DNA of 32,665 nt from Flavobacterium sp. (GCA_020048955.1 JAIFLT010000123.1:1-32665); one strand, 5' to 3'. Shown: positions 2,692 through 21,453, numbered from the stretch's first letter. Numbers and translations: made by a program. The notes: generated by a model from the sequence alone, not told the origin.

Positions 2692-4902
2692 ATGAGCAAT
2701 AAAACTTTCGATTTTGAAGAAATGTTTCGCATACAAGAAGCTTGCCAACAAAAGTTGTCGGGTACTACTACCAAAACAACAAGGCACAAACTTAAAAGTG
2801 TGCATCATTTGAACGACAATGGTAGTAAACTTATTTCCAATCCTATTGCTTTGATAGGCGAATATCTGTACAGTTTGTATGATAAATTTTTACTTTTTTA
2901 TCAAACCAAAATGGCACAACTTTTTCCAAGAAATGAAATTATTTTTTTAAACCAAATCAATAGTAGCGTCATAGGGCGACTTACTTTTTCTGATAAAAAA
3001 GATTATCACACGCCCATTCATCATATCCATTTAGAATTGTGGGCAAAAACGCGATTGGGACATTGGGTAAAACTCAGCGAAACGGATACCGACACCGAAG
3101 GTCGTTTTGAATTGGCTTTTGATATGTCTGTCATTCATCGAAACAGAATTGCCAAAAACATTCGTTTAGAAATTTATCATACCAATACACATAAGTTTAA
3201 TGAACATACTATTGAAAATACAGCAGCTTTTAGAGCAGAACGCATCAATACTTTGTTTAAAACCATTAAAATTAAAAAAGCTGATTTGGTAGGTTTGAGT
3301 TACAATATGGGAACCATACCTTTGTTTTATTGGGAATATAGACAAGATACCCCATTGCCACGAGTGGTGATTAAAGACCACGACAAAGACGCACCACAAA
3401 AATATCCACAAGCAAGAATAGATGCCATTGTAAAACAATTTATCCCTGTAGAACTTACCACTCAAAAACATCTTTTAAAAATAAAAGAAGGTAAATCCTT
3501 AACCATTGAAGAAATTCAAGCTGATTATCCCGAAAACTTAACCGTTGCTATGGAAAAAATGAAACCTGGCATCACACGCAGTGATGAATGGTTTGCAGAA
3601 AGAATGGTGAATGGAATGTATGCCAGCACTTTAGACAAAGATCCAGAAAATCCAAATGGCTATTGGTTGTACTATCATTGGAGTTCGTATGACCATACTT
3701 CTCAATATGCTTTTAATGATATTTCAATGAAGTTTAGCATCAACAATGAGGGTTATTTTATGCCCGAAAGCATCACGTTAAAAGGTCCTACAAAACCAAA
3801 CGATACTGCCCAATCCAAAATAACGCTTACGCCCAATGACGGACAGCAATGGGAGGCTGCCAAAAGAGTAGCCCGAGTGAGTGGTGGTATTTTGACCGAA
3901 GTTGACAAACATTTTACAGAAACACATCTCAATACAGAGCAATATGCCATTGCAGCTTATAGAAACATCAGACGCAATCCGGTGGGTTCTGTTTTATTTC
4001 CACATTTAAGAAGTGTGGTGCTCATTAATCATACTGCAGATCAAATATTAATTAAAGAAGATGGTTACATCAATAGAGCCACGGCACTAACCGCTAAAGG
4101 CATCAACAAAAGGGTTTATGATGTTTTAGGTACTTTAGATTGGAAAAATTGGCAACCTATGAAACCCCTTTCTTCAAAACATCGGTATGCCCATACAGCC
4201 AACTTGTTTTATACCGTTTTAACAGAATATATAGACGAATTTTTTGTCCTTCACGAAGATGAAATTACAGCTGAATGGCATGAAATTTTTGCGTTTTCTA
4301 GAGATTTAGTGGAACATTCGGTAGAACCATTTTTGTGCAAACACCTGCAAAAAGAAACAAATGCCAATCCTAAAACAGGAAAAACCACCAATCCTCCAAA
4401 TTGGTACACCACCGAAAACAGAATGGATTTGAACCTACAAAGACCCATTGTTTCTGATACCTACAAGGCGGTTTCACACATTACCACTTTAGCTACTTTA
4501 GACAAAAACAATCTGGAAGAATATTCGCAACAACTAAACAATTTAAAAAAAGCATGTGCTTATATCATTTTTAATGCCTCTTTTGGACATTATTGGGCAA
4601 ATTCTAAACAATATGACGACATTGGAGAAATTCGTTATTCCTCTTTAGGGATAAGACTTGGCTGTGAACCAAACGGCGTTTTGGGCGATGAAAAAGACGA
4701 TAGCATTGCACCAGATTTAACCATTGCAACCCAAATGATGTGGTGGAGTAATATGCTTTCCAAAACAGGTTATGGCTATATTATGAAAAACGAACAAGGC
4801 GACATCAACCCGCTGTTAATCCAAAAATTAAAAGCAAAAGAAGCGGAGTTTAACGCTTTGGGAGTTGATATCTATAACATTCAATCTGAAACTAATATCT
4901 GA
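2692..4902 (+). CDS. Lipoxygenase (non-heme iron fatty-acid dioxygenase)
   Basis: Lipoxygenases insert O2 into polyunsaturated fatty acids to give hydroperoxides. The full iron ligand set is readable: H407 and H412 in DKHFTETH (H-x4-H), H633 and N637 in GHYWAN (H-x3-N), and the C-terminal Ile736 whose carboxylate would bind iron. Flanking LOX signatures are present: WEAAKRVA before the first helix, LFPHLRSVVLIN after it, and NSKQYDDIG after the third His. Residues 85-165 look like a small beta-sandwich with a transthyretin-like pattern (LELWAK...TDTEGRFEL) and not an obvious PLAT domain. The 736-aa length suits a full-size LOX plus an N-terminal domain. No signal peptide is seen, so it is probably cytoplasmic. 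The stop overlaps the start of the catalase-related gene by one base (TGATG), implying translational coupling. Substrate and regio/stereospecificity cannot be read from sequence. Confidence 0.87.
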   Translation: MSNKTFDFEEMFRIQEACQQKLSGTTTKTTRHKLKSVHHLNDNGSKLISNPIALIGEYLYSLYDKFLLFYQTKMAQLFPRNEIIFLNQINSSVIGRLTFSDKKDYHTPIHHIHLELWAKTRLGHWVKLSETDTDTEGRFELAFDMSVIHRNRIAKNIRLEIYHTNTHKFNEHTIENTAAFRAERINTLFKTIKIKKADLVGLSYNMGTIPLFYWEYRQDTPLPRVVIKDHDKDAPQKYPQARIDAIVKQFIPVELTTQKHLLKIKEGKSLTIEEIQADYPENLTVAMEKMKPGITRSDEWFAERMVNGMYASTLDKDPENPNGYWLYYHWSSYDHTSQYAFNDISMKFSINNEGYFMPESITLKGPTKPNDTAQSKITLTPNDGQQWEAAKRVARVSGGILTEVDKHFTETHLNTEQYAIAAYRNIRRNPVGSVLFPHLRSVVLINHTADQILIKEDGYINRATALTAKGINKRVYDVLGTLDWKNWQPMKPLSSKHRYAHTANLFYTVLTEYIDEFFVLHEDEITAEWHEIFAFSRDLVEHSVEPFLCKHLQKETNANPKTGKTTNPPNWYTTENRMDLNLQRPIVSDTYKAVSHITTLATLDKNNLEEYSQQLNNLKKACAYIIFNASFGHYWANSKQYDDIGEIRYSSLGIRLGCEPNGVLGDEKDDSIAPDLTIATQMMWWSNMLSKTGYGYIMKNEQGDINPLLIQKLKAKEAEFNALGVDIYNIQSETNI

Positions 4903-5996
4903 TGAAAACAATTATTCAAAAACCAAAAAGATCTAGTGTGGGTCGGTTCATTGATCAACTAGAATTGAAAGTAGTGTCGCACCTATTTGGCTTTGCCATT
5001 GCCATAGGCATGGGTATAAAAGCCAGACAACGCATGTCGCACAACAATGGTATTGCTGCCAAAGGAACTTTTACCTTTGATTTAGATCCTGCTATTCCTC
5101 AACATCCCTTTTTAGTACAAGGAAAAGTTATGCCTTGCCAAGTTCGGCATGCTATGGCTACTTTTTATGATGATGCTATGGCAACCATCAAATCATTGAG
5201 TATCAAATTATCTGACCAACCTTTCAAAAGTCCGTTTGATATGAACCTCAACACCGGAAGTATTTCTCTTTTTTGGAATGTGGCAAGTTTTTTAAAATTG
5301 GCCAAATTGAGAAATCAAAAGTTTGGAATAGAATATATCGATTATTACAAACAATACCCTGTGGGCAAAGAAGCCGCTATTGATAACTTGAGAAGAAACC
5401 CTACTTCATTTTCTAATCTTACCTACCACGCTCAAACGCCTTTTAACTTTGTAGGAACTGATGGCGTGCAGCGTTATGCCAAATACAAAGCCATTCCTTT
5501 TGATTTAGAAACCGTAGAAACAGGCATTATATCTGAACAAAACCGATTGGAACCTGAAAATCAACGCATATTACCTGGCGAAACCAGAAACAGAAACTAC
5601 CTTAAAAACGAATTAAGAGAACGATTAAAAAAGCAAACCGTAAAATATTGGTTTCAAATACAAATAAGAGATGCACAACCTAATGAAAATGAAAGTATTT
5701 TCAATTCCAGTTTAGATTGGGACGCTACCGAATTTCCATGGCGAAATATAGGTGTTATTGAACTGAAAGAAATTATGGACTGGGACAGTTCCAATAGTAT
5801 AGGGTTTGGTGTAGGCAATATGCCCAAAGGTTTAAACTACATAAAAGCAACATCTATCTACGATTATAATTCCCTAAATTATATGCGAGATAAAACCGAA
5901 ATTGCCCGAAAAGCGAGATTATTTGCCTATAAAATTTTTGGAAAACCCATAGAAATCCCCGAAAATGATAATAGAAATTCTTCAACGATAGTGTAG
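4902..5996 (+). CDS. Catalase-related heme protein, allene-oxide-synthase-like (fatty-acid hydroperoxide converting)
   Basis: This 364-aa protein has the compact catalase core without the extra length of true catalases. The distal His is H47 in MSHNNGIAAKGTF, aligning with catalase VVHAxGxGAxGxF. The proximal heme ligand is Y343 in ARLFAY, with R339 giving the catalase R-x3-Y pattern. VRHA...IKSLSIKL and YYKQYPVGKEAA, HAQTPFNF, YAKYKAIPFD continue the catalase-related pattern. The residue before the distal His is Ser46; true catalases have Val there and coral allene oxide synthase has Thr. By my eye alignment the distal-pocket Asn of catalase (NNTPVFF) corresponds to GSISLFW, so it may be absent. 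Placement directly after a lipoxygenase suggests it rearranges the LOX hydroperoxide to an allene oxide or another epoxide or carbonyl product (inference). True catalase activity is unlikely. A hydrophobic stretch at 28-38 may associate with membrane. Confidence 0.85.
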   Translation: MKTIIQKPKRSSVGRFIDQLELKVVSHLFGFAIAIGMGIKARQRMSHNNGIAAKGTFTFDLDPAIPQHPFLVQGKVMPCQVRHAMATFYDDAMATIKSLSIKLSDQPFKSPFDMNLNTGSISLFWNVASFLKLAKLRNQKFGIEYIDYYKQYPVGKEAAIDNLRRNPTSFSNLTYHAQTPFNFVGTDGVQRYAKYKAIPFDLETVETGIISEQNRLEPENQRILPGETRNRNYLKNELRERLKKQTVKYWFQIQIRDAQPNENESIFNSSLDWDATEFPWRNIGVIELKEIMDWDSSNSIGFGVGNMPKGLNYIKATSIYDYNSLNYMRDKTEIARKARLFAYKIFGKPIEIPENDNRNSSTIV

Positions 5997-6513: not shown

Positions 6514-8013
6514 ATGGAAACAAAAGCATCTTTTATATTGGACAAAATAGTTGAAAAATATAGTGTTGCATCTAAAAAGTCAAGAAAAAGCAAGTATTTA
6601 ATTCTTTATCAATCTATAAAAAATTGTATTCAAACAAAAATTCTTATTCATCAAACTAATTTGCCTTCTACTAGAAAGCTAGCAATTTCGCTACATTTGT
6701 CTAGAACAACGATTTTAAAAGCTTTTGAACTATTAGTATTAGAAAAATTAATAATTCCAAAAAAGGGTTCGGGTTATTTAGTTAATTTTTACAAAGAAAA
6801 GAATCAAGGAGTTATTGCTTTTAAAGATGCTATTTATCCAGAAATATCTGAAAAAGGGATGTCTTTTTTAAAAAATGAAATTGTACAAAGTGCTAATTTG
6901 AATAAGAGTTTTACGTTTAGACCTGGTTTGCCTCCTTTAGATATTTTTCCTGTAAATCAATGGAAAAGCTTGTTAAATGTGTATTGGAAAAACATAAAAT
7001 CTTCTAGTTTGTCTAATGCTCCATCATCAGATTTGAATCCGTTAAAAATAAATATCTGCAATTATTTGAATGTGTGCAGAAACATAATTTGTGAACCCGA
7101 ACAGTTATTGATAGTTTCGGGCTCTCTACAATCTTTGTATTTAATTTCTAATGCTATCCTAAACAAAGGCGATGCTGTAGTTATAGAAAATCCAACTTTT
7201 CCTAATGTTATATCTATTTTTAATAGTATTGAGGCACATATAATTCCGCTACCCATTGATAATAACGGAATTGTACTAAAAAATTCTACCATAAATCAAG
7301 CTCAAAAACCAAAATTAATTCATGTAACTCCTTCTAATCATTATCCACACGGGGTTAAAATGAGCTTAAAAAGAAGAAAAGAGATAATAGAATGGGCTAC
7401 TAAAAATAGAGCTTTTATAATTGAAAATGATTATGAGAACGAAATGAGTTCGACAAAGCAATCATTGCCCAGTATTTATAGCTTAGACCAAGAAGACAGA
7501 ACTATTTATTTAGGTACTTTTAATAGAATTTTGCATCCCAATATTCGATTAGGGTATATTATTGTGCCAAAATATTTAATAAAAACCATTAAAGCAATTC
7601 AAGAACACTCGCACAAATTTGTCAATCCTTCAATACAACTTGTTATGAGTCAGTTTATTGAAAAAAATTATTTGTATTTACATCTTAAAAATATTCTAAA
7701 AGTGGCTCAAGAGAGAGAAATTTTATTTAGAAAATTATTTAATGAAAATACCACACATCTAAAAATTGAAGATAAACCTTTTTGTAGTTTGCATTTAGTT
7801 GCAAAATTTACCAGTCCAGTTTTTGTTGAACAAGAGTATAAACTACTAGAATTGTTTAAAGAATCTAACATTGTTGCTGATTCATTGAGTAATTGTTATA
7901 TAAATAAAGAAAAACAATTTGGTTTTATTTTTGGATATTCTTGTGTAAGAACTTCTTTAATGCAACAAAAAGTAATTCAAATGACAAAAATTATAAATTT
8001 ATACATGAAATAA
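6514..8013 (+). CDS. MocR/PdxR-like transcriptional regulator (GntR HTH + aminotransferase fold)
   Basis: A GntR-type winged helix (about residues 22-92; LPSTRKLAISLHLSRTTILKAFELL then KKGSGYLV) is fused to a fold-type-I aminotransferase-like domain (about 130-499). MocR hallmarks are visible: VTPSNHYPHGVKMSLKRR and IIENDYENEM, the latter carrying the Asp expected to contact the PLP ring. The segment that normally reads GTFSK, whose Lys forms the PLP Schiff base, reads GTFNRILHPNIRLGY here, so the Lys is replaced by Arg. Effector binding may therefore be non-covalent or may not involve PLP. It is transcribed from its own promoter and lies 93 bp upstream of the co-oriented secreted protein/DcuC/iadA/porin/M14 run, which is its most likely target (inference). 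Confidence 0.88.
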   Translation: METKASFILDKIVEKYSVASKKSRKSKYLILYQSIKNCIQTKILIHQTNLPSTRKLAISLHLSRTTILKAFELLVLEKLIIPKKGSGYLVNFYKEKNQGVIAFKDAIYPEISEKGMSFLKNEIVQSANLNKSFTFRPGLPPLDIFPVNQWKSLLNVYWKNIKSSSLSNAPSSDLNPLKINICNYLNVCRNIICEPEQLLIVSGSLQSLYLISNAILNKGDAVVIENPTFPNVISIFNSIEAHIIPLPIDNNGIVLKNSTINQAQKPKLIHVTPSNHYPHGVKMSLKRRKEIIEWATKNRAFIIENDYENEMSSTKQSLPSIYSLDQEDRTIYLGTFNRILHPNIRLGYIIVPKYLIKTIKAIQEHSHKFVNPSIQLVMSQFIEKNYLYLHLKNILKVAQEREILFRKLFNENTTHLKIEDKPFCSLHLVAKFTSPVFVEQEYKLLELFKESNIVADSLSNCYINKEKQFGFIFGYSCVRTSLMQQKVIQMTKIINLYMK

Positions 8014-8069
8014 AAAATTGGTATGTTATTTTTTTATAAATTGGTATTATTTTGAATTGATTTATTTTA

Positions 8070-8106: not shown

Positions 8107-9780
8107 ATGAAAAAATTTTACTATTTAATTTTATTATTCTCAATGTTTGGATGGAGCCAAACCACTATTTTTTCTGAAAATATGGGCAATGTAACCGCAA
8201 CAACGCTTATACCTGCTCACGTTACTGCAAATGGCTTTCAAAATTCGGCTACTTTAACATACTCTAGCGGCACCATTACAGATGGGGCAGATATTAGAAA
8301 CACTAATGCCTCATCGGGTTATACCAATGCTAGTGCGGGAGCAAATGTGTTTTTTTCTACCGCATCTAGTGCTGTTGCAAGAGGTTTTGCAATTGAAAGC
8401 ATTAATGCCTCAACTTATACAAATTTGCAACTGCAATTTGCCTATAGAAAAGAAAGTGCTACTGTTTTACCTGCTTTAGTGGTAGATTATTGGAACGGAA
8501 CACAATATGTAAATATTCCCTTTACTTTTAATGAAACAGCCAGTGCTGCTATAGCTTGGTATTTGACTCCCGTAATTAATCTTCCGGTTGACGCTCAAAT
8601 TAATGGACTTAAATTGCGCTGGGTTAGAAGTACTGGAGGAACAACCACAAGAATTGATGATGTAGTTCTTGCAGGAACACCCACAACTCCTTCTTTAAGC
8701 ACAACTCCCACTGCGGTTTCAGGACTTAACTATATTATTAATGCAGGACCATCAACGTCTCAAAGTTTTGGATTAACTGGAGCAAATCTTACTGGTGGTG
8801 CAGTAACTGTTGCCTTACCTGTAGTTTCTAATTTTGAGATTTCTGAAACTATAAACGGCACCTATAGTTCCTCTATTTCTTTAGCCGCTTTTAGTGGCAC
8901 ACTAACTACTATTTTTGTTAGATTAAAACAAGGTCTAGCCATAGCAAATTATAATGATATCATTACAATATCAGGTGGTGGCGCAAGTACAAATGTAAAT
9001 GTTGCCGGAAAAGTTGTAGAAGAAATTTTTCTTATTTATGAATTTACAAACAATTCATTAGTTGCAACTCAAACACCCGATGATGCAGTTACTACAGATT
9101 TTCAAGTAAGTTCTGACCTACTTGCTTTTGGAACAGCACAACCAGAAACATGGACTGGTTCTGGCGTACCCTATACTAATAGTCAAGCTGGATGGGCGGC
9201 AACAAATGCAGCAAGTGCAAAAAATTTCTTTTTTAATGTTACTCCAAATGCAAATTTTAATATAAATGCAACTGCTATTTCTTTTCAATATAGAGCAACC
9301 GGAAATGGACCATCTGGCATAACTGTAGAAATAAACGGAAATGTAATTGAAACTTTTAATGTGCCTGCCGACGTTACGAGTGTTTTTACAAAACCTCTAA
9401 ATCTTCAAAATCTTCCGTCACTTCAGGTAAAAATTTATGGTTGGAATAATGCTTCAAGAACTACTGATGGTAGTGGTTTTTTAAGAGTTGATGATGTAAG
9501 AATTAATGGAGAAACTTTTAATACCTTAAGTTCAAATGATTTTAATATAACAAATACTATTTCTCTTTATCCAAACCCATCTAGTAATGGCAATGTTTCT
9601 ATTAAATCTAATTTGAATGGATTAAAAAACATTCAAATGTTTGATATAAGTGGAAGAGAAGTTCTAAATACTACTATTCAAGAAAATAGTTTTAATGTAA
9701 ATGGTTTTAATAGTGGCGTTTATTTAGTAAAAATTACATCAGAAAATAAATCGTTTACAACAAAACTTATCATAAAATAG
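8107..9780 (+). CDS. Secreted multi-beta-sandwich protein with T9SS type A sorting domain
   Basis: A Sec signal peptide (MKKFYYLILLFSMFGWSQ) leads into a jelly-roll-like region (about 20-190), a repeat domain typical of Bacteroidota surface proteins (about 195-300; GLNYIINAGPSTSQSFGLTG...VRLKQGLAIANYNDIITISG), a second carbohydrate-binding-like beta-sandwich (about 305-475) ending in LRVDDVRI, and a C-terminal T9SS type A sorting domain (SLYPNPSSNG...GREVL...GVYLVKI...KLIIK). The protein would cross the outer membrane through the type IX system and be anchored or released. No catalytic motif is visible, so a binding or adhesive role is likelier than an enzyme. It is the first gene of a tight co-oriented run that goes on to surface protein, transporter, dipeptidase, porins and peptidase, suggesting a job in binding the substrate. 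Confidence 0.85.
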   Translation: MKKFYYLILLFSMFGWSQTTIFSENMGNVTATTLIPAHVTANGFQNSATLTYSSGTITDGADIRNTNASSGYTNASAGANVFFSTASSAVARGFAIESINASTYTNLQLQFAYRKESATVLPALVVDYWNGTQYVNIPFTFNETASAAIAWYLTPVINLPVDAQINGLKLRWVRSTGGTTTRIDDVVLAGTPTTPSLSTTPTAVSGLNYIINAGPSTSQSFGLTGANLTGGAVTVALPVVSNFEISETINGTYSSSISLAAFSGTLTTIFVRLKQGLAIANYNDIITISGGGASTNVNVAGKVVEEIFLIYEFTNNSLVATQTPDDAVTTDFQVSSDLLAFGTAQPETWTGSGVPYTNSQAGWAATNAASAKNFFFNVTPNANFNINATAISFQYRATGNGPSGITVEINGNVIETFNVPADVTSVFTKPLNLQNLPSLQVKIYGWNNASRTTDGSGFLRVDDVRINGETFNTLSSNDFNITNTISLYPNPSSNGNVSIKSNLNGLKNIQMFDISGREVLNTTIQENSFNVNGFNSGVYLVKITSENKSFTTKLIIK

Positions 9781-9828
9781 TTTTATTACAAAAAATAGTT
9801 ATAGTTCATTTTTTTAAAAATCAACCTC

Positions 9829-10830
9829 ATGAAAATCACTAGAATTTTAGTACCTTTTTTAGTCTTATTTTTTTCTTTTGCTTATATTAGATGCACCACC
9901 GAAGACATATTGCCGTCTTTAAGTGTAAGTTCTTCTAGTTTAAATTTAAGCGAGGCAAATGGAACTGTTGAGGTTACTGCCACTTTAAATGGTCCGGCAA
10001 CGAGCACTTTAACTATTCCGTTTGAACTAGGAGGAAATGCTCAAAACACTACAGATTATCAATTGAGTAATTTACAATTTGTAATACAAGAAGGAGCCAC
10101 ATCCGGAAAAATAACCATTACAAGTATTCAAGATAATTTAATTGAGAGTGTTGAAACAATTACTATTTCTATTCAAAACAATTCAAATGTATTAGTTACG
10201 TCACCTGTTTTTTTAAGTATAAATCTACAAGATGATGATGCAGATACTGACAATGATACTGTTCCAGATGCACTAGATAATTGTCCGGCTGTTTTTGGAG
10301 ATGTTTCTAATAATGGCTGTCCTTTTTTAGGACTTGTTATCAATGAAGTATTATATGACCCTGCAGACGGAATTGCTGGCGATGCTAATGGCGATGGAAC
10401 AAGAGACCCAAATCAAGATGAGTTTGTAGAAATTATCAATTCAAATCCTTCCTTAAACATAAGTGGATATACGCTTTCTGACGCTTCTTCTACAAGGCAT
10501 ACTTTCCCAACAGGAACAATTTTACCACAAAATGGTGTTATAGTTGTTTTTGGTGGGGGCACGCCTACAGGAACTTTTGGAGGAAGTATCGTTCAAACGG
10601 CATCAAGTGGACAAATCAACTTAAATAATGCAGATGATATGCTAACTTTAAGAAACGCCTCGGGTGTAGTTATTGCCACTTTTGATGTAACTCCGTTAGA
10701 TGATAATCCAAATGAATCTTATACAAGAAAACCAGATTTAACAGGTAATTTTGAAAGACATTCTACTATTAATAGTGCAAATGGAGCTATTTATTCCCCA
10801 GGAAGAAAAGTTAATGGTTCTAATTTTTAA
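9829..10830 (+). CDS. Exported Calx-beta / TSP3-like / lamin-tail domain surface protein
   Basis: The N-terminus is a hydrophobic export signal ending in FAYIRC (Cys22). Cys suggests a lipoprotein, but Arg at -1 does not fit the usual lipobox, so lipidation is uncertain. Residues about 30-135 resemble a Calx-beta sandwich. A short Asp-rich calcium-binding linker of thrombospondin type 3 style follows (DDDADTDNDTVPDALDNCP). The rest (about 170-333) is a lamin-tail domain (LVINEVLYDPADG...DEFVEIIN...ISGYTLSD) with an inserted Asp/Asn-rich loop. Bacterial lamin-tail domains are usually on extracellular proteins, often beside nucleases or other hydrolases (family knowledge). None is fused here. 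It follows the T9SS protein by 48 bp, and its stop codon is 3 bp from the transporter ATG. Confidence 0.8.
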   Translation: MKITRILVPFLVLFFSFAYIRCTTEDILPSLSVSSSSLNLSEANGTVEVTATLNGPATSTLTIPFELGGNAQNTTDYQLSNLQFVIQEGATSGKITITSIQDNLIESVETITISIQNNSNVLVTSPVFLSINLQDDDADTDNDTVPDALDNCPAVFGDVSNNGCPFLGLVINEVLYDPADGIAGDANGDGTRDPNQDEFVEIINSNPSLNISGYTLSDASSTRHTFPTGTILPQNGVIVVFGGGTPTGTFGGSIVQTASSGQINLNNADDMLTLRNASGVVIATFDVTPLDDNPNESYTRKPDLTGNFERHSTINSANGAIYSPGRKVNGSNF

Positions 10831-10833
10831 TTG

Positions 10834-12189
10834 ATGATAGGTCCAATAGTATCTCTTATTTGTATTATAATTATAACAAGGTTTTTGTTAAAAAATTATA
10901 ATCCTGTAGCTACCTTATTAATAGGAGGATTAGCTATGCTATTGATATCAATAATTTTAGAATTGCAATTACCCGAATTAAAAACATCAACAGGTTTTAA
11001 AGGATTTGATTTATTCAAATTTATAAAAGAATCTTTTAGTACTATAAACGAGGGTGTTGGGTTAATGATTATGGCAATTGGAGGTTTTGTGGCGTATATG
11101 GATAAAATAGGTGCATCAGATAAATTGGTAGATTTAGCCATGAAACCATTGGCATTATTTAAAAAAAGCCCCTATTTAGCCGCTTCCATGGTTATACCCA
11201 TAGGTCAAGTATTGTTTATTGCTATACCATCTGCAGCCGGATTAAGTTTATTGCTAATGACCTCTATGTATCCTATTTTAGTAAAACTAGGCGTCAGTAG
11301 ATTATCAGCCGTATCAGTAATTACAGCAACAACAACTTTTGGAATTGGTCCTGCATGTGCCACTACAGCAAGTGCTATAGATTTAATTAAACTAGATTCG
11401 GTATTTTATTTTCTAAATTTTCAAATTCCCTTAGTATTGCCATTGTCGCTTTCTATGATGATAACTTATTTTTTTGTAAATAGATATTTTGATAAAAAAA
11501 ATCCGGAAGAACTAATAGAAGAAAATCATAACAAAACAAATGTTAGTGTTCCTGCTATTTATGCTATTTTGCCCATTTTACCCATAGTTTTATTAATCGT
11601 TTTTTCCGAATTTTTTCCGTTTTTTGAACCACCCATAAAATTAGATACAACAACAGTAATGTTCATCAGTTTATTTGTAGCCTTAATTTTTGAAGCTATT
11701 AGACTTAAAAACATTAAAAACACCTTAAATTCTTTACAAACATTTTGGAATGGTATGGGCGATATTTTTAAAACCGTTGTAGTTTTAATCATCGCAGCCG
11801 ATATTTTTGCTAAAGGACTAATAAGTTTAGGGTTTATAGAAGGATTAATTATTATTACAGAAAATCTTGGTTTTGGCGCAATAGGTGTAGGAATTGTAAT
11901 GACAATTATGATATTTTTAGCCTCAATGTTAATGGGAAGCGGAAATGCTGCTTTCTTTGCTTTTGGTCCTTTAGTGCCAAAAATTGCTACTAAACTTGGA
12001 ATTGCTAGTACAGAAATAATTTTACCCATGCAATTAGCAGCATCAATGGGAAGAACCGTTTCGCCAGTTTCGGGAGTTTTAATTGCAACCGCTCAAATTG
12101 CAAAAGTTACCCCAATTGCCATTGTTAAAAGAAATATAATCCCACTTGGCATTGCATTAATACTTATGCTAATACTTCATTTTATATAA
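10834..12189 (+). CDS. DcuC-family C4-dicarboxylate/amino-acid carrier
   Basis: A polytopic inner-membrane protein of 451 aa with about 12 hydrophobic segments. It resembles DcuC along its whole length: an N-terminal STGFKGFDLFKFIKE...GLMIMAIGGFVAYMDKIGASDKLV, and the conserved C-terminal block MGSGNAAFFAFGPLVPKIA...LAASMGRTVSPVSGVLIATAQIAKVTP. DcuC proteins move C4-dicarboxylates such as succinate and fumarate. In this operon, beside isoaspartyl dipeptidase, the cargo may instead be aspartate, an isoaspartyl dipeptide or a related acidic compound (inference). The track start at 10831 is TTG; I prefer the ATG at 10834. The gene is 2 bp from iadA. Confidence 0.85.
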   Translation: MIGPIVSLICIIIITRFLLKNYNPVATLLIGGLAMLLISIILELQLPELKTSTGFKGFDLFKFIKESFSTINEGVGLMIMAIGGFVAYMDKIGASDKLVDLAMKPLALFKKSPYLAASMVIPIGQVLFIAIPSAAGLSLLLMTSMYPILVKLGVSRLSAVSVITATTTFGIGPACATTASAIDLIKLDSVFYFLNFQIPLVLPLSLSMMITYFFVNRYFDKKNPEELIEENHNKTNVSVPAIYAILPILPIVLLIVFSEFFPFFEPPIKLDTTTVMFISLFVALIFEAIRLKNIKNTLNSLQTFWNGMGDIFKTVVVLIIAADIFAKGLISLGFIEGLIIITENLGFGAIGVGIVMTIMIFLASMLMGSGNAAFFAFGPLVPKIATKLGIASTEIILPMQLAASMGRTVSPVSGVLIATAQIAKVTPIAIVKRNIIPLGIALILMLILHFI

Positions 12190-12191
12190 AT

Positions 12192-13334
12192 ATGTTAAAA
12201 CTTATAAAAAACGCAAATCTATTTTCGCCCACTTCATTAGGAAAAAAAGACCTTTTGATTGCTGCTAACAAAATTGTAGCCATAGATGAAAACTTAGATA
12301 GATTTAAGAATGACGCACAAGTTTTTGATATGCAAGGAAAAAGCGTAGTGCCCGGATTTATAGATCAACATATTCATATCAATGGAGCAGGTGGAAAAGA
12401 TGGCTATTCTTCTATGACACCCGAAATTAAATTGAAAGATTTAATTGCGTGTGGCACAACAACTGTGGTGGGGCTTTTAGGTACTGATGGAACAGTAAGA
12501 AACATTAGATCTTTATATAGTAAAACAAAAGCATTAGAACAAGAAGGAATTTCGGCCTATATGTTTTGTGGATATTATGGTGTAGATACGGTTACCATTA
12601 CAGACAATATTCAAAGCGATATGATTTTTATTGATAATGTTTTGGGCTGTAAAATTGCAATAAGCGACATTAGATCTTCTTATCCAACGGCGCTTGAATT
12701 AGTAAGAAAACTTAGAGACGTGAGAGTGGGTGGAGGCATTGCAAGAAAAAAAGGAATTTTGCACATTCACTTGGGCAATTTACCCAGTAAAATGGACGTA
12801 CTTTTTGAATTAGTAAAAGATTATGGTTTTCCCATAGAACATATTTCGCCAACTCACGTTACAAGAACCAAAGAATTATTTGACGAAGCCATAAAATTTG
12901 CAAAATTGGGCGGAATGATTGATATAACAACAGGAGCCTCAAAATATACGGCACCTTATTTATCGGTTTTATATGCACTAGAGCAAGGAGCGTCTATAGA
13001 CAACATGACTTTTAGCACAGATGGACATGCTGGGCTTTCTAAAGTAAATGATCAAAAAGAAACGATTGTTTTTCCGGCACCCATTTATACAAATTTAAAA
13101 GAAGTAGTAGATCTTGTGAAATTAGGAAATTATCCGCTAGAACAAGCCATAAAATTAATAACATCAAACCCTGCAAAAAATTTAGGATTAAAAAATAAAG
13201 GTAAAATTGAAATAGGATATGATGCCGATTTGTGTGTGTTTGATGACCATCTAAATTTAGTAGATGTTTTTGCTCACGGAAAACCATGTATGCTAAATGG
13301 TGAAATAATTGTAAAAGGAACTTTTGATTCATAA
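12192..13334 (+). CDS. iadA: Isoaspartyl (beta-aspartyl) dipeptidase
   Basis: An amidohydrolase-superfamily binuclear zinc enzyme that splits beta-Asp-Xaa dipeptides. All ligands expected from E. coli IadA are present: H60 and H62 (DQHIHINGAGG), K154 (GCKIAISDIRS, the carboxylated bridging Lys), H193 (HIHLGN), H222 (PTHVTR) and catalytic D277 (FSTDGHAG). GLLGTDG and the C-terminal NPAKNLGLKNKGKIEIGYDADL are also typical. At 380 aa it matches the family. There is no signal peptide, so it acts in the cytoplasm on imported dipeptides or on products of protein isoaspartate turnover. Its position between a DcuC-type carrier and an outer-membrane porin points to a nutritional role rather than repair (inference). 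Confidence 0.93.
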   Translation: MLKLIKNANLFSPTSLGKKDLLIAANKIVAIDENLDRFKNDAQVFDMQGKSVVPGFIDQHIHINGAGGKDGYSSMTPEIKLKDLIACGTTTVVGLLGTDGTVRNIRSLYSKTKALEQEGISAYMFCGYYGVDTVTITDNIQSDMIFIDNVLGCKIAISDIRSSYPTALELVRKLRDVRVGGGIARKKGILHIHLGNLPSKMDVLFELVKDYGFPIEHISPTHVTRTKELFDEAIKFAKLGGMIDITTGASKYTAPYLSVLYALEQGASIDNMTFSTDGHAGLSKVNDQKETIVFPAPIYTNLKEVVDLVKLGNYPLEQAIKLITSNPAKNLGLKNKGKIEIGYDADLCVFDDHLNLVDVFAHGKPCMLNGEIIVKGTFDS

Positions 13335-13344
13335 AATATAAAAA

Positions 13345-14652
13345 ATGAGAATTTTAAATAAAATTATCTATTCTGTACTCTTTCTTTCTTTGTTGACTAC
13401 AAATGCTCAAGAAATAAAAATGAATGAATACACCTTTGGGGAAGGGTTTAATTTTTCTACATCAAATGGAAATACGATGCAAATTTCTACTTATTTTCAG
13501 CCTTATTTTGAGAGTAGAAGTTATGAAGATGCACAAGATTTTGGTGGACTAAATAGATTTAGAATACGAAGAGCCAGGCTAAGACTAGATGGAAAATCAA
13601 ACAATAGTCGTTTTAGCTATCGTTTTCAGGTTGATTTAACAGGATCGGGAGAGGCAGACAATGATTTGGTAAATAATTATTTACTAGACGCTTGTGTTTC
13701 TTATGATGTAAGTAAGCAAATATCAATCACTTTTGGACAAAGAGCCACTTATACTGATAATAGAGAACTTTTAATGAATTCTAGTTCGCTGCAACTCGTT
13801 GACAGAAGTAGATTAACCTCGGCATTTGCAACCATTAGAGAATTTGGATTATTTGTAGATGGAAATTTTAAACTAGGAGGCACATCGTATCTAAGACCTT
13901 ATTTTGTTCTTACAAACGGCGATGGACAAAGCATATATGGAAAAGATAGAGGTGGTTTAAAAGTGGGCGGAAGAGTAGATTATTTGCCATTTGGTTTATT
14001 TAGCAACTTTGGTCAGTTTAGACAAGTAGATATTGTAAGAGAATTAACCCCAAAATTTGTAATTGGAACAACTTATAGCATCAATCAAGGAATAAGTAGC
14101 AGAGCGGGTAGAGAGAGTGGCGAAATTTTATATCTAAATGCTTTAAACGAAGAATCACTGCCCGATTATAGTAAATTTGGAATAGATTTTTTGTTCAAAT
14201 ATAAAGGATTTTCTTGCTTGGGCGAATTTGTAAAATCTTGGACAACTGTTCCTTCTGATATTACACAAAGAGTGAGAACAAACGGAACTGTAACTTCTGA
14301 TTTTGAAATAAATGGGGTTCAAAACAAAGAAAATTATATAAAAAACAGAATGATTTTAGGGAGTGCTTATAACCTGCAAATGGGCTACATACTTAAATCA
14401 GGAGTTTCTATAGATGCACGATACACGCATTTAAAAGCAGATGAATTTTCGTTTCTTAATAACGGAACATTTTACAATAGACCAGATCATTATACTATTG
14501 GAATTACAAAATATATTGCTAGAAATTATGGTGCAAAAATTCAAGCAGATTGTACTTACATGACTAATAATGGAGGAATTGACAACCTCAACGGAACTCC
14601 AATTTCTGGAAATGAATGGATTACAAGATTAATTTTATCATTATCATTATAA
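13345..14652 (+). CDS. OprO/OprP-like outer-membrane porin (first copy)
   Basis: Signal peptide MRILNKIIYSVLFLSLLTTNAQ, then a beta-barrel with alternating strands and an aromatic C-terminal strand (WITRLILSLSL). The phosphate-selective porin O/P pattern is visible: FRIRRARLRLDGKSNNSRFSYRFQVDLT, then ACVSYDVSKQISITFGQ and GLKVGGRVDYLPFG. Family members are anion-selective channels. Here it probably admits acidic peptides or other anions for the carrier and IadA encoded just upstream (inference). It is 10 bp after iadA and 1 bp before the M14 peptidase. The second porin at 16203 is its paralogue. Confidence 0.82.
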   Translation: MRILNKIIYSVLFLSLLTTNAQEIKMNEYTFGEGFNFSTSNGNTMQISTYFQPYFESRSYEDAQDFGGLNRFRIRRARLRLDGKSNNSRFSYRFQVDLTGSGEADNDLVNNYLLDACVSYDVSKQISITFGQRATYTDNRELLMNSSSLQLVDRSRLTSAFATIREFGLFVDGNFKLGGTSYLRPYFVLTNGDGQSIYGKDRGGLKVGGRVDYLPFGLFSNFGQFRQVDIVRELTPKFVIGTTYSINQGISSRAGRESGEILYLNALNEESLPDYSKFGIDFLFKYKGFSCLGEFVKSWTTVPSDITQRVRTNGTVTSDFEINGVQNKENYIKNRMILGSAYNLQMGYILKSGVSIDARYTHLKADEFSFLNNGTFYNRPDHYTIGITKYIARNYGAKIQADCTYMTNNGGIDNLNGTPISGNEWITRLILSLSL

Positions 14653-14653
14653 A

Positions 14654-16183
14654 ATGAAAAAAATAATTATCTATTTTCAACTTTTTTTTAGCACTTTTCT
14701 TTGGGGGCAAATGAATCCGCAGTCTAAAGAAATTACTCAAAAATTCTTTCCAGATGTAGATACACTTTCTATACACACACCTGGTTTAAAAAAAGAAAAA
14801 GGATTTGTTAATTATGAAGAGTTAATTGCTTTTTTAGAAAATCTTGCAACAAAATACCCCGATAGAATTTCACTTTCCTACATTGGCGAAAGCCAAAAAG
14901 GACATAAAATTCCAATGGTAGTTTTAAAATCAAAAGAAGTAATTAATCCTATTAAAGTATATATGCAAGGCGGCTTACATGGCGATGAACCCGCAAGCGT
15001 GGAAGGAATGTTGTATTTAACTCATGCGCTTGTTACTAATTCAAAATTAAATTATTTATTTGACAAAATTGAACTAAGAATTGTTCCCATGGCTAATATT
15101 GATGGAAGTTTAAAACTAGAAAGAAACGCCTCAAACGGATTAGATTTAAACAGAGATCAAACTAAATTAATGGCTGCAGAAACTATAATTCTAAAAAATG
15201 CTTTAACTAATTTTAACCCAGAAATTGCTCTAGATTTTCATGAATTTAGACCTTTTAGAAAAGATTTTACAAAGTTTGGGTCATTTGGCGTAACGTCATT
15301 TCATGATGTTATGTTTTTATATTCAGGAAATTTGAATGTTCCACAAAATTTAAGAAACTATACCCAAGATGTTTTTGTAAAAAATGCCAAGGAAAAATTA
15401 GACACCCATCAAATCACTCATCACGATTATTTTACCACAAATACTTATGACGGAGCGGTTCAATTTGATTTAGGATCAACAAATGCCAGGTCTAGCGCAA
15501 CTTCATTTGCTTTGCAAAATAGAATTTCAACGCTTATAGAAATTAGAGGCGTTGGGTTAAACAAAACGTCATTTAAAAGACGCACCCTCATTGCTTATTG
15601 CATTGGTTTATCTTATTTAGAAACCGCTTTTTTAGAAGACAAAAAAATAAGAGATGTTATAAAAATTGCTAATGAAAACAAAGAAGATATTGTAGTTAAA
15701 AGCAAAAAAATAATTTCTAACGAATCATTGAAATTTATAGATTTAGATTCAAATAGTCCTATAAATATTGACGTAACCTTAAGAAATTCTTTAAAATCTA
15801 TAGCTACATTTTCAAGAAAAAGACCTATTGGATATCTATTAGATGCAAGCTTGATAGACATAGTAAGTAAATTAAAAATATTAGGATTTGAAGTTTCAAC
15901 AATAGAAAACGACACAACTTATAAAATAGAATCTTACTTAGTTACTTCTTATAAAATAGATGAAATGAAAACTGAAAAAATGAATCTACAAGATATAAAT
16001 ACCGAAACAAATGTTTCTGAAAAAATGTTTTCAAAAGGTTCGTTTTATGTTTCCCTCAATCAAAAAGGAGCTTCATTAATTGCAGAAGTATTAGAGCCCG
16101 AAATGCCAAATAGTTTCATCAGTTTTGGTGTTTTAAAAACAGAAAATAATCAAATTTTACCCATATACAGACATATTCAATAA
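14654..16183 (+). CDS. Exported M14 family zinc carboxypeptidase-like protein
   Basis: Signal peptide (MKKIIIYFQLFFSTFLWGQ) followed by an M14 metallopeptidase domain. Zinc ligands are H109 and E112 (GGLHGDEPAS) and H196 (DFHEF). DLNRD gives the substrate-binding Asn-Arg, and E296 in LIEIRG fits the catalytic Glu. The roughly 200-residue C-terminal part (RPIGYLLDASLIDIVSKLK...SYLVTSYKI...FSKGSFYVSLNQKGASLIAEVLEPEMPNSF) matches in order the C-terminal part of the M14 protein at 19726. In this operon it sits between two porins and after iadA, so it may trim peptides or amidated side chains in the periplasm to produce the import substrate (inference). Whether it acts as a carboxypeptidase, deacylase or amidase cannot be told. 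Confidence 0.86.
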   Translation: MKKIIIYFQLFFSTFLWGQMNPQSKEITQKFFPDVDTLSIHTPGLKKEKGFVNYEELIAFLENLATKYPDRISLSYIGESQKGHKIPMVVLKSKEVINPIKVYMQGGLHGDEPASVEGMLYLTHALVTNSKLNYLFDKIELRIVPMANIDGSLKLERNASNGLDLNRDQTKLMAAETIILKNALTNFNPEIALDFHEFRPFRKDFTKFGSFGVTSFHDVMFLYSGNLNVPQNLRNYTQDVFVKNAKEKLDTHQITHHDYFTTNTYDGAVQFDLGSTNARSSATSFALQNRISTLIEIRGVGLNKTSFKRRTLIAYCIGLSYLETAFLEDKKIRDVIKIANENKEDIVVKSKKIISNESLKFIDLDSNSPINIDVTLRNSLKSIATFSRKRPIGYLLDASLIDIVSKLKILGFEVSTIENDTTYKIESYLVTSYKIDEMKTEKMNLQDINTETNVSEKMFSKGSFYVSLNQKGASLIAEVLEPEMPNSFISFGVLKTENNQILPIYRHIQ

Positions 16184-16202
16184 CAGATTATAAATAAAAA
16201 AA

Positions 16203-17420
16203 ATGAAAAAATTAGTACTACTATTTGTATTTTTAAACGTTGCTTTATCACTTAATGCACAAGAAGAAAAGAAATCTAACCAAGCAAATTTTGAACTAGG
16301 AAGTGGTTTAAACTTTTCTTTTAATAAAGGAGCTTATGAATTTAATATTTCGGGGTTTATTCAGCCAAGTTATATCTATGAAAAAACTGAAAACCGCAAA
16401 TCTACTCAAGAATTTAATTCTAGAAGGTCGTTTTTTATGATGAGTGGCAAAGCAGTAAAAGAAAAAATTAGTTTTTTATTACAAACAGATTATAGCCAAT
16501 CTAGTCCTTTAATGGATGCCTGGGTTGCTTATCACCCAACTAATTCAATCACAATTTCGGCTGGTCAAAAACAAACTTTTGTAAACAACAAAGAAATGTT
16601 GATTAGAGAAGACCGTTTACAATTTACTGATAGAAGTTTACTTAGCCAAAATATGAGTAGAACAGGAAGAGAAATGGGACTATTTATTGAAGGTAAATTT
16701 GGAAATAAATTTGGAATAGCACCCAAATTAGCATTAACATCTGGTGATGGTAGAAACTCTTTTGGTGCTGATTCTAGAGACACAGATGCTGGCGGCGTAA
16801 AGCTGGGCGGAAGATTAGACATTTATCCACTAGGGTTTTTCTCTGAAGGAATTGAACAAACCACCGCAGATCTTAAAAAAGAAGATAAACTAAAAATGGT
16901 TTTAGGTGTGGCATTTAGTGTAAACAATGGAGCATCGGCATCAAACGGAGAAGGGCACAGAGAAATTGAACTATTTGATTCTTTTGGAAATTTTTCATCA
17001 CCTAATTACAATCAATTATACGTTGATTTGTTGTTAAAATACAAAGGTTTTTCGTTTTTAGGCGAATATAATAATTCAACTGCCGATGATATTGACCTCG
17101 TTTACACAAATGACACTGCCACACAACTACTTGTCCCACAAGAGATTAGTAGTTATTTTCTATTGGGCGACAATTACAATTTTCAGGCCGGATATATGTT
17201 GCCAAAAGGTTTTAGTATAGACACACGATATGAAATTTCTAAACCCGAATTTTCAACTTACACTAATTCGTTGTTAAAAGATTCTAATAGCTACACCATT
17301 GGTTTAACAAAATACTTTAGTGGAAACAATTTAAAAATACAAACCTCTTTTACAGCAATACAAATAGAAAACGGAGCAAAACAACAAATTGGGTCTTTGC
17401 TCATGCAAATTGCTTTTTAA
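16203..17420 (+). CDS. OprO/OprP-like outer-membrane porin (second copy)
   Basis: Signal peptide MKKLVLLFVFLNVALSLNAQ, then a porin barrel ending in a C-terminal strand with terminal Phe (LLMQIAF). The OprO/P family signature is RRSFFMMSGKAVKEKISFLLQTDYS, then DAWVAYHPTNSITISAGQKQTFVNNKEMLIREDRLQFTDRS. It resembles the porin at 13345 in the same segments (REFGLFVDGNFKLGG vs REMGLFIEGKFGNKFG; DHYTIGITKY vs NSYTIGLTKY), so the two are probably diverged tandem duplicates on either side of the M14 gene. It is the last gene of the run. No clear hairpin terminator follows in the 197 bp before the convergent gene at 17618. Confidence 0.82.
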   Translation: MKKLVLLFVFLNVALSLNAQEEKKSNQANFELGSGLNFSFNKGAYEFNISGFIQPSYIYEKTENRKSTQEFNSRRSFFMMSGKAVKEKISFLLQTDYSQSSPLMDAWVAYHPTNSITISAGQKQTFVNNKEMLIREDRLQFTDRSLLSQNMSRTGREMGLFIEGKFGNKFGIAPKLALTSGDGRNSFGADSRDTDAGGVKLGGRLDIYPLGFFSEGIEQTTADLKKEDKLKMVLGVAFSVNNGASASNGEGHREIELFDSFGNFSSPNYNQLYVDLLLKYKGFSFLGEYNNSTADDIDLVYTNDTATQLLVPQEISSYFLLGDNYNFQAGYMLPKGFSIDTRYEISKPEFSTYTNSLLKDSNSYTIGLTKYFSGNNLKIQTSFTAIQIENGAKQQIGSLLMQIAF

Positions 17421-19725: not shown

Positions 19726-21453
19726 ATGCGTTTTATAAAAGTTGCTTTCCTCCTATTCACGACAGTTCTTTTGGCTCAAGATAATGCAAAATACGACACC
19801 TATTTTGAAAAAGGAAACGGAAATCAAAGTGCTGATTATGAGGAAATACTTCGTTATTATGAGCAATTGGATTTAGATTTTGAAACCATTCAAGTTTTAA
19901 ATATGGGCGAAACCGATAGTGGTGAACGCTTGCAAGTAGTGATTTTCAATCCAGATAAAGTATTTGATTTAAATTTTGCTTCTTCAGAAAAAAGCATCCT
20001 ATTAATCAATAACGGAATTCACGCCGGTGAACCTGACGGAATTGATGCCACCATGCAATTGTACCGCGACTTGGCTTTAGGGAAAATTAAAGTGCCAAAA
20101 AATGTGATTGTGGTTGCTATTCCGGTCTATAATATTGGTGGTTGTTTGAATAGAAATTCGACGACGCGCGTCAATCAAGATGGACCAGAGGAATATGGTT
20201 TTCGAGGCAATGCAAGAAACTTTGATTTGAACAGAGATTTTATAAAATCGGATACTAAAAATACACATAGTTTTTATAAAATATTTCAAGAATTCAATCC
20301 CGATATTTTTATAGACAATCACGTGAGCAATGGCGCAGATTATCAATATACGTTGACGTACATCATGACCGAACCTAAAAAATTAGGTACCGTTTTGGGT
20401 GATTATATGAAAAACGAATTGACGCCATCGATTGTAAAAGATTTACAACAAAAAAAGATAGAAACCACGCCTTATGTAAACGTTTGGCACGGCACACCAG
20501 ACGAAGGTTTTCAGCAGTTTTTTGAAAGTCCGAGGTATGCCACAGGTTATACTTCATTATTCAATACCATTGGTTTTGTGGTAGAAACGCACATGTTGAA
20601 AAACTACGCTAGTCGTGTGAAAGCAACTTATGAGTTTATGGTTTCTACAATAAATTTTGCCGATAAAAACTATAAAACCATAAAAATCAAACGATTAGAA
20701 AACAAAAAACAATTTCTACCAAAAAGTGAGTATACCATTAAATGGGAAATTGATACGACCAAAATTACCAAAATTCCGTTTTTTGGTTACGAAGGAAAAT
20801 ACAAAAAAAGTGATGTAACCACAGGCAAACGATTGTATTACGATAGAAAACTTCCGTTTACAAAGTACATTCCTTTTTTGGCAGATTTTAAATCGGTTCA
20901 AACGGTTAAAATCCCGAATGCTTATGTCATTCCACAAGGATTTTGGCCCGTAATTGATCGTTTGAAAGAAAATAAAGTAGAATTCAGAAGATTAAAAACC
21001 GATACAATAATTGAAGTAGAAAGTTATAGAATTACCGATTATAAAACTTCTAAAAATGCTTACGAAGGACATTATCCGCACAACAGTACAAAAATTGTAA
21101 GTTCTAAAATAAATATGAATTTTAGAAAAGGTGATTATTTGTTCAAAACCGACCAAATGGGCGTAAAATTTCTAGTAGAAACATTAGAACCAGAAGCCAT
21201 AGACAGCTTTTTCAATTGGAACTTTTTTGACACCATGTTGCAACAAAAAGAAGGCTATTCCGATTATGTTTTTGAAGATTTAGCCAATGAATATCTGAAC
21301 AAAAATCCAGAATTGCGAGCCAAATTAGAACAAAAGAAATTAGAAGACAAAGTCTTTGCAGAAAACCCAGAAGCGCAATTGGATTGGGTTCATAAAAATT
21401 CTACATATTACGAAAAAGCGCATTTGCAATATCCTGTTTATAGGATAAACTGA
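19726..21453 (+). CDS. Exported M14 family zinc metallopeptidase
   Basis: Signal peptide (MRFIKVAFLLFTTVLLAQ) then an M14 catalytic domain. Zinc ligands are H99 and E102 (GIHAGEPDG) and H199 (IDNHVSNGADY). FDLNRD is the substrate-binding block, and E287 in FVVETH fits the catalytic Glu. The C-terminal 200 residues (NAYVIPQGFWPVIDRLKENKVEF...VESYRITDYK...FRKGDYLFKTDQMGVKFLVETLEPEAIDSF) share their pattern with the M14 protein at 14654, so this is a two-domain architecture present twice in the window. It stands alone, divergent from the helicase, with its own promoter. Substrate is unknown. Confidence 0.87.
   Translation: MRFIKVAFLLFTTVLLAQDNAKYDTYFEKGNGNQSADYEEILRYYEQLDLDFETIQVLNMGETDSGERLQVVIFNPDKVFDLNFASSEKSILLINNGIHAGEPDGIDATMQLYRDLALGKIKVPKNVIVVAIPVYNIGGCLNRNSTTRVNQDGPEEYGFRGNARNFDLNRDFIKSDTKNTHSFYKIFQEFNPDIFIDNHVSNGADYQYTLTYIMTEPKKLGTVLGDYMKNELTPSIVKDLQQKKIETTPYVNVWHGTPDEGFQQFFESPRYATGYTSLFNTIGFVVETHMLKNYASRVKATYEFMVSTINFADKNYKTIKIKRLENKKQFLPKSEYTIKWEIDTTKITKIPFFGYEGKYKKSDVTTGKRLYYDRKLPFTKYIPFLADFKSVQTVKIPNAYVIPQGFWPVIDRLKENKVEFRRLKTDTIIEVESYRITDYKTSKNAYEGHYPHNSTKIVSSKINMNFRKGDYLFKTDQMGVKFLVETLEPEAIDSFFNWNFFDTMLQQKEGYSDYVFEDLANEYLNKNPELRAKLEQKKLEDKVFAENPEAQLDWVHKNSTYYEKAHLQYPVYRIN

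Follow-up and report, generated by a model that had tools for sequence, protein, structure and literature searches.

A porin and carrier operon behind a MocR regulator in Flavobacterium and its candidate substrate, a beta-linked C4-dicarboxylate oligomer

What does a bacterium take up through an operon that joins two anion porins, a dicarboxylate carrier and two hydrolases to proteins of the cell surface? The question is raised by a stretch of 32,665 nucleotides from Flavobacterium sp. (GCA_020048955.1 JAIFLT010000123.1:1-32665), hereafter the window, which makes up the entire contig C186 in a 2.93-Mb draft genome of 88% completeness. An earlier note on this DNA had proposed that seven co-oriented genes at positions 8107 to 17420, behind a MocR regulator, serve the use of acidic or isoaspartyl peptides, with beta-Asp dipeptides from damaged protein or from cyanophycin as plausible substrates. 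Our analysis, which is computational throughout, leaves standing a regulon, an acidic substrate and entry without SusC and SusD, but not routine hydrolysis of beta-Asp dipeptides, nor cyanophycin. We think it rather probable instead that the cassette takes up and catabolizes beta-linked C4-dicarboxylate oligomers of the poly-aspartate or poly-malate type, and passes their carbon to gluconeogenesis.

A conserved operon and its operator

Genes were called by translation and profile searches of the open reading frames (ORFs) of the window, and this recovered every gene of the earlier note, in the same order and on one strand. The features are as follows, T9SS being the type IX secretion system.

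6514..8013, + strand: MocR/GabR-type regulator (PF00392 and PF00155)
8019..8047, + strand: operator, direct repeat TGGTAT-N17-TGGTAT (pattern search)
8107..9780, + strand: T9SS-exported surface protein (PF18962/TIGR04183)
9829..10830, + strand: lipoprotein with Calx-beta and lamin-tail domains (Cys-Thr-Thr-Glu-Asp after the signal peptide)
10834..12189, + strand: DcuC-family C4-dicarboxylate carrier (PF03606, 266 bits; NF037994, 383 bits)
12192..13334, + strand: IadA-family amidohydrolase, Glu77 replaced by Lys69 (TIGR01975, 375 bits; curated cut-off 331)
13345..14652, + strand: porin A, an OprO/OprP-type anion porin (Pfam Porin_O_P, PF07396; model)
14654..16183, + strand: exported M14 zinc carboxypeptidase (HxxE, H, NRD and E motifs invariant)
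16203..17420, + strand: porin B, of the same family as porin A (about 35% identity to it over 392 aa)

From the T9SS protein to porin B the consecutive spacings are 48, 3, 2, 10, 1 and 19 bp, within the range first described; the listed start of the DcuC gene is a TTG at 10831, with an ATG directly after it (10834). Signal peptides, read from the sequence, are present in the lipoprotein, the porins and the M14 peptidase and absent from IadA, which matches the compartments proposed earlier.

A perfect direct repeat, TGGTAT-N17-TGGTAT (8019-8047), lies downstream of MocR, 59 bp upstream of the first gene of the operon, and its exact form occurs only this once in the whole window genome. Relatives have the repeat at the corresponding position, and in them it also stands between MocR and the gene for an exported hydrolase homologous to poly(aspartic acid) hydrolase-1 (PahZ1). 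Across 26 loci we count 33 exact TGGTAT pairs at a gap of 17, against 0.15 expected under a first-order Markov null, and 1 or none at each of the other gaps from 5 to 40; loci without MocR have no TGGTAT-N17-TGGTAT pairs. Its half-site, ATACCA, is that of GabR. On this pattern MocR and the seven genes form one predicted regulon, and the operator supports the single co-regulated unit that had been supposed. Moreover, an exact copy of the operator lies 108 bp upstream of the gene for phosphoenolpyruvate carboxykinase (PEPCK) in one relative (G325), a one-mismatch copy lies 109 bp upstream of it in another (G199; chance about 0.35% per 500 bp), and PEPCK adjoins the cassette in two loci (L032 and L053). 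Through these sites the regulon would be linked to the flow of C4 carbon into gluconeogenesis. In the window genome neither PEPCK copy carries the operator, and one-mismatch matches number 30, against 16 for a reversed-pattern control.

How widely is the arrangement kept? About 90 genomes from the genus of the window have no IadA above the curated cut-off, and 11 of 399 other sampled genomes of the family do have one. IadA context was surveyed in the family sample, in a Polaribacter locus and in a single genome from the same order: wherever the context is readable, IadA sits in the same cassette. The gene set does occur in other Flavobacteriaceae, and the order common to relatives is MocR, T9SS and lamin-tail proteins, DcuC, IadA, porin A, M14 and porin B (in G320 spread over three contigs). 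A search across the class with the M14 alignment gave ten further genomes from seven families, seven with a MocR-bearing cassette, one whose cassette breaks off at the end of its contig, and two with MocR-less variants. The cassette is a real, widely conserved Bacteroidota cluster, far from chance, since about two dozen loci or genomes across Bacteroidia share its order. The slot of the T9SS protein varies between loci, and an orthologue of porin B is present in every complete cassette. A version lacking MocR, DcuC and IadA is present in two small pelagic genomes (in one it can be read through porin B, in the other it runs into a contig end). Even this version retains the lipoprotein, so that the lipoprotein, the porins, the M14 peptidase and PahZ1 make up the core.

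Changed amine sites in IadA and MocR

Is the cassette IadA an ordinary isoaspartyl dipeptidase? Its metal ligands, the position of the carbamylated lysine and the catalytic aspartate are all kept (equivalents of H68, H70, K162, H201, H230 and D285). However, the equivalent of the amine-binding Glu77 of E. coli IadA, retained in 9 of 9 IadAs from outside the cassette, is lysine in 21 and glutamine in 2 of the 23 cassette copies. In the Colwellia enzyme the corresponding residue, Glu80, contacts the alpha-amine nitrogen of the substrate, and the E80Q mutant has no activity on beta-Asp-Leu (PMC5517026). Three other positions separate cassette IadAs from the rest (Gly74 to Ala, Arg83 to Met or Leu, Ser289 to Gly), all near the amine pocket in sequence or structure. 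Judged by these residues the cassette IadA is not canonical, and its recognition of the amine appears lost.

A similar change is seen in the regulator, which consists of a GntR-type winged helix-turn-helix and a fold-type-I aminotransferase domain, and which matches GabR (4n0b, E 2e-34). The lysine that would bind pyridoxal phosphate (PLP; GabR K312) is replaced by arginine in 21 of 21 copies seen, and the pyridine-binding aspartate (GabR D279) by asparagine in all 14 copies aligned at that site; the equivalents of both are conserved across all MocR clusters (PMC6677901). Because the amine pocket of IadA and the PLP residues of MocR are both changed, we read the two as parallel losses, which suggests that the ligand has no free amine; beta-Asp dipeptides would fit this less well than malate-type units or an N-blocked beta-aspartyl chain. 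The regulator would then sense its ligand without a PLP aldimine and act through the direct repeat.

DcuC adjoins an ordinary, Glu77-bearing IadA in Enterobacteria. On the E. coli plasmid pE-T70-KPC-2 a LysR-iadA-dcuC unit with normal Glu77 lies between IS26 copies and adjoins blaKPC-2 (L116:4959-8593).

PahZ1, the proposed pathway and its rivals

In 10 of 12 first-round loci a neighbour of MocR is the exported alpha/beta hydrolase homologous to PahZ1 (PDB 6ve6, E 2e-61; 9o7u, E 9e-47). Strong matches to PahZ1 occur in 9 of the 11 IadA-positive genomes of the family and in 0 of the 388 IadA-negative ones (Fisher p ~1e-16). Pedobacter PahZ1 cuts beta- and not alpha-amide bonds, and converts beta-tri(Asp) to beta-di(Asp) and then stops, the dimer being left uncut (PMC4456602); an IadA-type enzyme would therefore be its natural partner. 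A DASS symporter usually accompanies PahZ1, replaced in two other loci by DctA (484-491 bits, against 300 for GltP). A DUF4886 domain (PF16227), which we take, unverified, to be SGNH-esterase-like, is fused or adjacent in relatives' loci. At L126:7804-10833 a natural PahZ1-DUF4886-M14 fusion of 1009 aa directly follows DcuC-IadA, with SusC and SusD upstream.

Three further occurrences of PahZ1 may be recorded here. In a genome without IadA, PahZ1 stands with DASS and DUF4886 beside SusC and a likely SusD (L089:9532-19213), which looks like this pathway in a SusCD-linked form; L090 and L094 hold solitary homologues beside genes for DNA polymerase I and ribosomal proteins in small flavobacterial genomes.

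The model of porin A, at moderate confidence (predicted local distance difference test, pLDDT, 72), is a barrel closest in the PDB to OprP (2o4v) and OprO (4rjw), and 19 of its 134 invariant columns among 14 orthologues are arginine, as would suit a polyanion; porin B has no Pfam match. The M14 model has a carboxypeptidase A/B/T fold (pLDDT 84) whose specificity the fold search does not resolve, with all zinc and catalytic residues invariant; an invariant Arg279 may belong to the specificity pocket. The C4-dicarboxylate carriers, the OprP-like porins and the PahZ1 neighbours together support the acidic substrate proposed earlier, and a Pfam search of all main window ORFs finds no SusC/SusD pair, in keeping with entry by another route. 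Elsewhere in the window, positions 19726-21453 encode a second M14-like exported protein of 575 aa, without a Pfam match at 0.001 and about 20-22% identical to cassette M14 proteins.

From the gene order, the operator, the residue changes and the PahZ1 association, all read directly from sequence, we infer a substrate, a direction of transport and an order of steps. The regulon would serve a polymer or oligomer of the beta-polyaspartate or beta-polymalate type, and the window would carry its uptake half. Most relatives have an exported hydrolase of the PahZ1 type which, under the same MocR, would cut the polymer either extracellularly or at the cell surface; the lipoprotein and the T9SS protein would hold the pieces there, and the two OprO/OprP-type porins would pass them across the outer membrane. 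The M14 carboxypeptidase would trim them in the periplasm, and dimers or monomers would enter the cytoplasm through DcuC (in relatives also through DASS or DctA). The altered IadA would split the last beta-linked dimer, probably one without a free alpha-amine, and the C4 product would enter gluconeogenesis via PEPCK.

Several observations weigh against this picture. Neither PahZ1 nor DASS was found in the 88%-complete window genome, and two first-round cassettes have no PahZ1 nearby; the bacterium may feed on oligomers that other organisms release, or PahZ1 may lie in the missing part of the assembly. Given its place beside Glu77-bearing IadAs in Enterobacteria, DcuC is not diagnostic of the substrate. 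Lys77 would argue against beta-Asp-Asp as the dimer. The M14 peptidase argues for amide and not ester bonds, in conflict with the Lys77 evidence on the monomer, as do the neighbours of PahZ1 in Microvirga (a peptide ABC transporter and an M20 peptidase), which alone are telling on polymer identity among the mostly uninformative proteobacterial plasmid neighbourhoods. The evidence on the monomer is thus split: the peptidase families and the chemistry of PahZ1 favour the amide, polyaspartate, and the lost amine pockets, like the carriers, speak for malate.

Could the substrate then be specifically beta-poly(L-malate), a polyester of fungi and slime moulds? This special case of a beta-linked dicarboxylate oligomer is in our view a possibility to be held tentatively: the bonds hydrolysed by PahZ1, M14 and the altered IadA would be esters, and the cargo of DcuC, DASS and DctA would be malate or its dimer. 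This reading would account for the loss of the IadA amine pocket and the MocR PLP site in all copies, for added carriers that are all of C4-dicarboxylate types and for PEPCK in the regulon, and the DUF4886 domains, on our own unverified reading of them as esterase-like, would suit it too. It is also favoured by the standing of beta-polymalate as the natural polymer, of which beta-poly-Asp is an amide mimic (PMC9210645). Nevertheless, PahZ1 is known to cut amides, M14, like the M20 of Microvirga, is a peptidase family, and the characterised polymalate hydrolase of Comamonas (43 kDa) behaves neither as a serine esterase nor as a metallo-esterase. A full polymalate regulon, with PahZ1, which is known only to cut synthetic polyaspartate, as a natural polymalate depolymerase, IadA as a di-malate hydrolase and MocR as a PLP-free sensor of a hydroxy acid, is a shade more doubtful still. 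We found no utilisation locus for polymalate or polyaspartate in the open-access literature.

We regard as unlikely the reading of the earlier note, in which damaged protein supplies ordinary isoaspartyl dipeptides and peptides that the operon scavenges with a standard IadA. An M14 enzyme could trim peptides, and an IadA that passes the curated cut-off with its metal and catalytic residues intact speaks for such a role; however, every cassette copy has lost the amine-binding glutamate, together with the three neighbouring changes, a substitution at that glutamate kills the Colwellia enzyme (CpsIadA), the association with PahZ1 is near-exclusive, and the carriers are for dicarboxylates and not peptides.

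Very unlikely, and the least probable of these readings, is that an external cyanophycinase yields beta-Asp-Arg for the operon to import and split: the genome does hold a real cyanophycinase (TIGR02069, 231 bits, cut-off 127), but none is in the window by profile searches, as had been noted, and the gene lies on another contig (C62 of G000, L101:1271-6037) with an IaaA-type Asparaginase_2 gene able to finish the job, divergent from a cyanophycin synthetase (1262 bits), and no cassette locus has a cyanophycinase, an arginase or a basic amino-acid carrier. Stored cyanophycin would thus be served by that cphA-cphB-iaaA cluster, and we reject it as the purpose of the cassette. A Pseudoalteromonas plasmid (L129:1-6351) carries a TonB receptor, a YfcC carrier, iadA and arginase, which looks like an uptake locus for beta-Asp-Arg from cyanophycin and is unlike the cassettes.

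Apart from the cassette, the window encodes at 2692-5996 a protein of the bacterial lipoxygenase family, followed, with an overlap of 1 base, by a 364-aa protein without a Pfam match. The latter resembles catalase by eye, a likeness that is unverified, and with its lipoxygenase neighbour it is possibly an oxylipin pair.

Relation to known systems and significance

The nearest known systems are those of PahZ1 in Pedobacter KP-2 and Sphingomonas KT-1, which share with the cassette of relatives a homologous hydrolase and an exo-acting carboxypeptidase partner, and whose product dimers need a dipeptidase for the beta linkage. The cassette differs in embedding the PahZ1 step in a regulated surface-porin-carrier operon, with M14 instead of M20, and the window genome itself is without PahZ1. 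Cyanophycin loci (cyanophycinase, iadA and a transporter; Ben Hania et al., cited in PMC10206079) likewise set an IadA-family enzyme beside a carrier and act on an external Asp-based polymer, whereas the cassette lacks cyanophycinase and has another outer-membrane route, a changed IadA amine pocket and dicarboxylate carriers. The SusCD polysaccharide loci of Bacteroidota have the same overall plan of surface lipoprotein, outer-membrane entry, periplasmic trimming, inner-membrane carrier and own regulator; the cassette has OprO/OprP-type porins in place of SusCD and a predicted non-sugar substrate, and in the relative L126 SusCD replaces the porins. With GabR and other MocR regulators the cassette MocR shares its two domains and a direct-repeat operator, and differs from them in the Lys312 and Asp279 replacements and a spacer of 17 bases.

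Polyaspartate is sold as a biodegradable polymer. If our reading is right, the cassette would be the first genetic system for the use of beta-linked poly-dicarboxylates in Bacteroidota and would give PahZ1 a natural context, and amine recognition would have been lost in parallel in a clade of IadA and in a clade of MocR. The operator and the residue changes make the question of the substrate directly testable.

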